Shown piece by piece: positions 17,007 to 18,374 of a DNA stretch of 64,000 bases (positions are counted from its first letter, which is position 1; the number at the start of each line of letters is the position of its first letter). Below the pieces are notes generated by a model, which saw only the letters and a list, made by a program, of their open reading frames with translations, was not told the DNA's origin and ran no database searches. The position numbers were made by a program, and so were the translations under genes. The DNA comes from Desulfogranum japonicum DSM 18378 (GTDB lineage Bacteria; Desulfobacterota; Desulfobulbia; Desulfobulbales; Desulfobulbaceae), in assembly GCF_000429945.1 (NCBI RefSeq), contig NZ_AUCV01000002.1, positions 186,001 to 250,000 on the forward strand, in the 5' to 3' direction.

Positions 17007-17051
17007 GGTTAAAGAGAATCAATCTCAAAACAATGTGACAAGGAGGAGCAC

Positions 17052-18374
17052 ATGCCCAGAAGAGCAATGCTGAACACACTTTTCGCCTGTGTACTCGTGT
17101 CTATGATCAGTTATGGTTGTGCTGGTCATCACGATAAAAAACAGGTAGCTGAACCCAAAGTTAGCCAGGTAGAAAACAAGCAGGAGGCCACATATAAAGG
17201 AAAAGTTGTTGGTAAATCCAACAAGGCTAAAACCATATCCATTGAGGTTGGAAAAGGCGACGCTGCAAAAACTGTTATGCTCAAATTCGACGAGCAGACC
17301 CAGGGTATTGACCAAGCGATAAAAGATCATGCAGTTATCATTACCTATGTTAAAAAGGATATCGGCCTTTATGCAGTGAGTGTAAAACCCAAACTGGCAA
17401 AGCTTCCTGATGGAGTCACTGAAATTAAGACAGAGGAATTGGCAGAATATATCGAGGCTGGAGAAGATATATATCTTGTTGATTCGAGGCCTACAAGCAG
17501 ATATGGTCAATCTCATCTTCCGGATGCGGTTTCCATTCCAGTACCAATGCTCAAAGATAAAAAAGAGGCGTTGCTGCCAGAGGATAAAAACAAACTTCTC
17601 ATTTTTTATTGCGGAGGGCCCACATGAGGCATGTCAACTGCTTCCGCCGGTCTGGCGAAAAAGATGGGATATCAAAATGTTCGTGTCTATCTTGATGGTG
17701 AACCAGCATGGGCTCAGGCATATCTGCCCACTTATGCAACAAATAATTTTGTGAAAAATGGCAATGTCGTCGTTATCGATATTCGTCCCAGCCACGAAGC
17801 AGTGGAAGGCCGGATAAAAGGTGCATACTCCATTCCTTATGAACAGCTTGAAAACCGGGTAGATGAAATCCCACGCAATGCTCCTGTGATTCTCTACGGT
17901 AACGAAGAGGTTATGGACGCAGTTGAAGACCTTAGAGATGACGGATTTAAATTTGTCTCTCTTGTAAAAGGCGGCCTTAAAGGATGGATAAAAAGTGGCG
18001 AGGCTATAGAAACAGGCCCTATTTATAATACTGAGATAAAATGGGTTCGAAAACTCGGCAAAGGTGAAGTCTCACTTGATGATTTTCGCAAAGCAGCTTC
18101 CGGTGAAGACAAGACTGCCATAATTGTTGACGCAAGAACCAAAGATGAAGTAGCCGAACTCGGAATTTTCAAAAATACCATTAACATTCCGCTGGATGAA
18201 ATACCGGCGCGCATGGATGAATTACCCAAAGATAAAAAAATATATATTCACTGTTCCACGGGTGCACGGGCAGACATGGCCTACAAGGAGCTTGTAAAGC
18301 ATGGTTTCAATGTTAAATTTTTGCTCCTCAATATTGCCGATGCCACTTGTGATTGTGAGATAATTCGCCCTTGA
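17052..18374 (+). CDS. selenocysteine-containing triple-rhodanese lipoprotein (UGA recoded)
   Basis: One frame of 440 residues with an in-frame TGA at codon 192 (17625-17627). AGGAGGAG fixes the start. Residues 1-23 are a lipoprotein-like signal ending ISYGC. A small beta-rich segment (about 40-110) precedes three rhodanese domains: about 120-225 with loop CGGPT-U-GMS, about 235-330 with YGNEE and no catalytic Cys, and about 335-440 with CSTGAR (Cys401). After the TGA the frame continues the same domain without shift (GMSTASAGLAKKMGY...VYLDGEPAW), the usual continuation of rhodaneses that I recall with Cys at this spot. The downstream half has no SD of its own. A hairpin with loop GGUCU begins 17 nt after the UGA. 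Probable role: periplasmic sulfur or selenium transfer or redox. The alternative is a nonsense mutation, which I consider less likely. Confidence 0.85.
17642..17659 (+). promoter_or_regulatory. candidate bacterial SECIS hairpin
   Basis: Reading UU-C-CGCC-GGUCU-GGCG-AA: a 4-bp GC stem (17645-17648 with 17654-17657), a bulged C at 17644, two more A-U pairs, and the five-base loop GGUCU (17649-17653). The loop begins 21 nt after the UGA. The E. coli fdhF SECIS has a GGUC loop, a one-base bulge on the 5' side and a loop 18 nt after its UGA. It lies inside the coding region, as bacterial SECIS elements do. Confidence 0.75.

Follow-up and report, generated by a model that had tools for sequence, protein, structure and literature searches.

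A rhodanese gene interrupted by one in-frame TGA

Does the reading frame at positions 17052-18374 of the window, the whole 64,000-nucleotide stretch of the Desulfogranum japonicum DSM 18378 genome that was analysed, encode one protein or two? From ATG 17052 to the terminal TGA at 18372-18374 it has a sole interruption, the TGA at 17625-17627, after which it continues in the same frame with GGC-ATG. Coordinates and sequence agree here with an initial annotation made from the DNA letters, which had proposed a selenoprotein. As that annotation had expected of automated callers, standard calling without read-through gives two ORFs, of 191 and 247 amino acids, whereas the read-through product has 440 residues with one recoded codon, at residue 192 (Table 1). 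The window contains 31 TGA codons that are preceded by at least 60 open codons and followed by at least 40; of these, only 17625-17627 combines a long frame, homology across the codon and a conserved hairpin; chance hairpins follow a few of the others.

Searched with Pfam, the read-through product matched PF00581 with 139.9 bits against a cut-off of 22.2 (E 4.3e-41) in three rhodanese stretches, and the strongest of them, at residues 127-222, crosses the TGA; a single rhodanese domain is thus completed across the interruption, as had been claimed. The downstream frame measures 243-259 codons in every selenocysteine (Sec) form of the family, with substitutions chiefly at third positions. Two Sec homologues, L049 and L050, apparently have an extra in-frame TAG or TAA beside the TGA.

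Table 1 Features of the read-through rhodanese gene, in coordinates of the window
Feature	Position	Strand	Basis
Shine-Dalgarno sequence AAGGAGG of the gene	17040..17046	+	Direct reading, 5 nt before ATG 17052
Complete read-through gene, 440 aa, predicted Sec at residue 192	17052..18374	+	Frame reading, homologues
N-terminal signal sequence with probable lipobox Cys23 (S-Y-G-C) at its end	17052..17120	+	Direct reading; lipidation predicted
N-terminal beta-rich domain, about residues 46-119	17187..17408	+	AlphaFold2 strands 46-113
Rhodanese domain 1, residues 127-222, containing the predicted Sec	17430..17717	+	PF00581; model pLDDT above 90
Cys187 codon, usual rhodanese catalytic position	17610..17612	+	Invariant in alignment A1; 94/95 homologues
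Shine-Dalgarno-like GGAGG, Sec forms only	17613..17617	+	43/71 Sec vs 0/24 Cys forms
Recoded TGA, predicted selenocysteine, residue 192	17625..17627	+	95 homologues: TGA 71, Cys 24, other 0
Predicted SECIS apical hairpin CGCC-GGUCU-GGCG	17645..17657	+	Pairs in 71/71 Sec vs 3/24 Cys forms; covariation; synonymous codon conservation
Rhodanese domain 2, probably structural, with G283 in place of the catalytic Cys	17745..18002	+	Profile match, homologues
Rhodanese domain 3, active-site loop HC401STGARA	18069..18323	+	Profile match; Cys401 in 94/95 homologues
C-terminal C433-D-C435	18348..18356	+	C435 in 71/95 homologues

Selenocysteine and cysteine codons alternate at residue 192

Homologues were collected from 146 genomes of the order (E <= 1e-40), 90 of which contained one, and from a phylum sample of 297 genomes (E <= 1e-30), which yielded 26. 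Codon 192 was read in both samples and in ten named loci, mostly from Desulfobulbaceae and Desulfocapsaceae MAGs; removal of duplicates and exclusion of locus L123, which was unalignable at the site, left 95 non-redundant homologues. The codon aligned with residue 192 is TGA in 71 of these, TGC in 17 and TGT in 7. Nothing other than Sec or Cys thus occupies the position at which the initial annotation had suggested looking for either residue, and since 71 non-redundant homologues share the position of the TGA, the sequencing error that it had named as a possible refutation does not apply.

On well-supported branches of the family tree, at least 10 interchanges of Sec and Cys can be counted; parsimony gives 13. 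Many Cys forms are nested among Sec forms, and two of them, L062 and L066, retain the hairpin sequence described below, which together argues for recent change from Sec to Cys.

A conserved hairpin and a complete Sec machinery

Downstream of the TGA, 20-32 nt past its T, lies a hairpin with a 4-bp stem and a 5-nt loop, whose four pairs can form in every Sec form and in few Cys forms (Table 1); when the pairing test was shifted by 3-9 nt, at most 3 sequences paired. The outer pair is C-G, G-C, U-A, A-U or U-G and the innermost is C-G or A-U, so both sides of the stem change together while pairing is kept. RNAalifold recovered exactly this hairpin from the Sec forms and nothing from the Cys forms. 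At the synonymous level, identity among 24 Sec relatives is 90-100% at codons +6 to +10, against a background of 40%, and codon choice in the hairpin region is strongly biased, with Ala written as GCG in 52 of 55 cases (13% background) and Gly as GGT in 54 of 55 (25%). The loop GGUCU resembles that of E. coli fdhF. The fold of the single sequence around the TGA was no better than shuffles (z 0.14), and an Rfam search of the region gave no match; as the hairpin is short and its single fold unremarkable, it was the comparison of homologues that was required to make the case convincing. Every Sec form accordingly has, after its TGA, a hairpin of the bacterial SECIS type, such as the initial annotation had suggested looking for.

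The genome of D. japonicum itself carries selA (E 1e-183), selB (E 3e-107) and selD, each above its curated cut-off, and a tRNA-Sec with anticodon UCA was found by both Infernal and ARAGORN, which completes the set of selA, selB, selC and selD that the initial annotation had listed for verification. Among the 42 Sec-form genomes tested, tRNA-Sec was found in 41 and the remaining one has selB; likewise, tRNA-Sec is retained in 19 of 21 Cys-form genomes, and the other two have selB. Sec has therefore changed to Cys repeatedly in genomes that keep the machinery for it, a pattern in the sequences which indicates that Sec at residue 192 is useful but dispensable.

Other genes of this genome also contain in-frame TGA codons. 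The selD gene (L018, 1501-2442) has one, within KAAG-U-AAKLGPGDL, and thus itself encodes a predicted selenoprotein; the same holds across most of the order, a few families having Cys forms instead. Matches to the hairpin 11-mer within range of a TGA number seven in the genome, including that of the 17052-18374 gene and one in a formate dehydrogenase gene. The GCCGGTCTGGC hairpin sequence also occurs after the in-frame TGA of the formate dehydrogenase alpha subunit gene (G000:C44:5466-8447, L193), whose TGA frame was verified by hand ((8447-7889)/3 = 186). Finally, a rhodanese on contig C4 (L151, ~198,725-198,931) has an in-frame TGA with C-x4-U spacing (YCMGYR-UGA-VFS) and is apparently a second Sec-rhodanese of this genome.

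Weighing the alternatives to selenocysteine insertion

Two separate proteins would result if translation stopped at the UGA and re-initiated at ATG 17631 via the GGAGG at 17613-17617. The initial annotation had described the downstream part as devoid of a Shine-Dalgarno sequence, a description that we correct here, for this GGAGG lies 13 nt upstream of ATG 17631; it is moreover limited to Sec forms, and an ATG stands among the first four codons of the downstream part in 54 of 71 Sec forms as against 9 of 24 Cys forms. Yet each Cys form is one continuous protein, and the UGA lies inside domain 1, so that its fold would be divided between the halves, the second of which would also lack a signal sequence. 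Nine of the 71 Sec forms, in addition, have no ATG, GTG or TTG among the first four codons, and the conserved hairpin would be left unexplained, all of which makes a pair of proteins very improbable. Decoding of the UGA as Trp or some other standard amino acid, through near-cognate read-through or a changed code, draws on nothing beyond the open frame; Trp occurs in no homologue and only Cys occurs besides TGA, the gene itself terminates with TGA, and both the Sec machinery and the hairpin are present, which leaves this reading scarcely credible. The single in-frame stop could also be the mark of a pseudogene or of a sequencing error, but the homologues, drawn from many assemblies and with TGA at the identical residue, refute it, and substitution on both sides of the TGA is of the coding type, with no frameshift; we regard its chance as negligible. 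From these comparisons, 17052-18374 is almost certainly one selenoprotein, in which UGA 17625-17627 is read through with Sec.

The GGAGG, formed by the codons TGC GGA GGG and placed 7 nt before the recoded TGA, could instead supplement Sec insertion. The codon of Gly188 is GGA in 43 of 58 Sec forms and in none of 19 Cys forms (Fisher p 3.7e-9, a value that the shared ancestry of the homologues makes too optimistic); at the 20 other Gly positions tested, Sec and Cys forms do not differ (lowest p 0.09). Loss of GGAGG accompanies several separate Sec-to-Cys changes, and the median pairing energy with the anti-Shine-Dalgarno sequence is -8.8 in Sec forms, compared with -4.3 for the Cys forms and roughly -2 for control stretches. 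Part of this bias could reflect avoidance of GGC, which at Gly188 lowers the predicted mean formation of the hairpin to 0.60-0.64, compared with 0.74-0.88 for GGA, so that avoiding it may protect the hairpin a little; GGT and GGG would be harmless to the hairpin and yet are rare in Sec forms (1 and 8 of 58), and their scarcity is not explained in this way. As a part of the SECIS the element was rejected, since RNAalifold over -30 to +60 leaves it unpaired, and so was a general selenoprotein rule, for within this order it is absent before the selD UGA and mostly absent for formate dehydrogenase. Its spacing from the UGA resembles that of the Shine-Dalgarno element at the prfB frameshift site. 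Literature text searches for such an upstream element found no report, which is weak evidence of novelty. It is possible, though in our judgement rather unlikely, that the GGAGG acts besides the SECIS by pairing with 16S rRNA and holding the ribosome at the UGA, thereby favouring Sec over release, or that it serves as a switch allowing some re-initiation when selenium is short; the synonymous choice would then be kept only while Sec is present and lost with Cys.

Domain architecture and cellular location

AlphaFold2 prediction from 43 aligned sequences gave a model with a mean pLDDT of 86.8, in which a beta-rich N-terminal domain precedes three rhodanese domains. The nearest solved structures are the multi-domain rhodaneses 1yt8, 6mxv, EanB and YnjE, with low global TM-scores, so that only individual domains are comparable. 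The C187-x4-U/C192 pair is invariant in alignment A1, which bears out the initial placement of Sec five residues after Cys187 in the loop of domain 1. At the catalytic position of domain 2, homologues mostly have Gly, Ser or Ala.

The product had been called a lipoprotein, and a putative signal sequence ending in S-Y-G-C23 can be read at its N-terminus, but the lipobox is weak and the column is Cys in 47 of 95 homologues; export to the cell envelope of this Desulfobulbales-type bacterium is likely, and the product is probably lipid-anchored. Where our protein has the probable lipobox Cys and no CxxCH, 15 relatives, mainly from beyond the near group, have a CxxCH haem motif between the signal sequence and the N-terminal domain, ahead of the triple rhodanese part (L097, L099, L100, L106-L109, L111-L113, L117, L119-L121 and L123). 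CxxxCH-type motifs (CVQPGCH, CGIAGCH) occupy the same place in L114-L116 and L118. The haem motif in these distant relatives argues for a redox role in the envelope, and we infer from such sequence features that the protein may exchange electrons with envelope partners. Nothing about function could be gathered from the neighbouring genes, which, read by eye, are housekeeping or unrelated; when 20 genomes were searched for a functional gene neighbourhood, only the synteny shared near close relatives emerged.

Relation to known selenium-containing rhodaneses

Sec-containing rhodaneses have already been listed as several families (PMC13188914, PMC9312934). Among them are Sec rhodanese-like proteins of form 1 (UxxS, WP_010941598.1) and form 2 (UxxG), which PMC13188914 attributes to Zhang and Gladyshev 2005 and PMC9312934 lists as well. 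The UxxS motif of form 1 is shared with most members of our family, and for both, a UGA together with a bacterial SECIS is the basis of the predicted Sec; form 1, likened here by motif and not by sequence, is possibly an earlier record of the same family. No NCBIfam model reaches its cut-off with the 17052-18374 protein. The model of TsoB (NF045694, rhodanese/DsbD fusion-like, UxxxxU) aligns with residues 125-231 (E 4.5e-16; 58 bits, where the cut-off is 805), and both proteins have two chalcogen residues five apart in the rhodanese loop, but TsoB has two Sec and a DsbD part, whereas our protein has one Sec (CxxxxU) and no such part. NF041203, a rhodanese-related (seleno)protein, likewise combines the rhodanese fold with Sec or Cys variants, although its model describes a single domain of 126 positions with CxU instead of CxxxxU and scores 70 bits, where 115 would be required.

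ExtH (NF040901), a 49 kDa rhodanese-family envelope lipoprotein that our probably lipid-anchored protein would resemble in this respect, belongs to the selenite/tellurite and electron-conduit cluster of Geobacter (PMC6148476, PMC5877670). Identity with ExtH was rejected, since NF040901 matches only one of 43 family members, weakly, and not the protein studied here; nor are any porin or cytochrome genes, as in an ext-like cluster, conserved beside the gene. The 17052-18374 protein is a well-supported addition to the already known selenium-containing rhodaneses.

A proposed redox sulfurtransferase mechanism

The hairpin at 17645-17657 would direct SelB and tRNA-Sec to decode UGA 17625-17627. Cys187 and Sec192, five residues apart in the active-site loop of domain 1, most likely form a thiol/selenol pair: Cys187 would accept sulfane sulfur as a persulfide, from polysulfide, thiosulfate or elemental sulfur, Sec192 would attack this persulfide with release of sulfide and formation of a selenenylsulfide, and an electron donor of the envelope would re-reduce the pair. 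Alternatively, the same cycle may run in reverse, in the oxidative direction. Domain 3, with Cys401, could provide a second, conventional site of sulfur transfer, and domain 2 could serve as a structural spacer. We tentatively propose on these grounds, with slightly more doubt than belief, that the protein is an envelope persulfide/polysulfide redox sulfurtransferase with this chemistry and these substrates.

Rhodaneses have been suspected in the disproportionation of elemental sulfur and thiosulfate by related bacteria, in data that do not bear directly on our gene (PMC3739170, PMC9751629). As a hint of the same kind of gene, the adjacent rhodanese tags UWK_03368/03369 of Desulfocapsa sulfexigens SB164P1 (PMC3739170) could be its two halves.

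Implications for sulfur-metabolizing lineages

Since standard calls split the gene, an exported sulfur-handling selenoenzyme of this kind is readily overlooked, and the lineages to which it would belong are sulfate-reducing and sulfur-disproportionating ones. Should the Sec-only GGAGG prove functional, bacterial UGA recoding would gain an upstream element, one that is simple to test. With so many natural switches between Sec and Cys, this single family lends itself to testing what benefit selenium brings to sulfane-sulfur chemistry.
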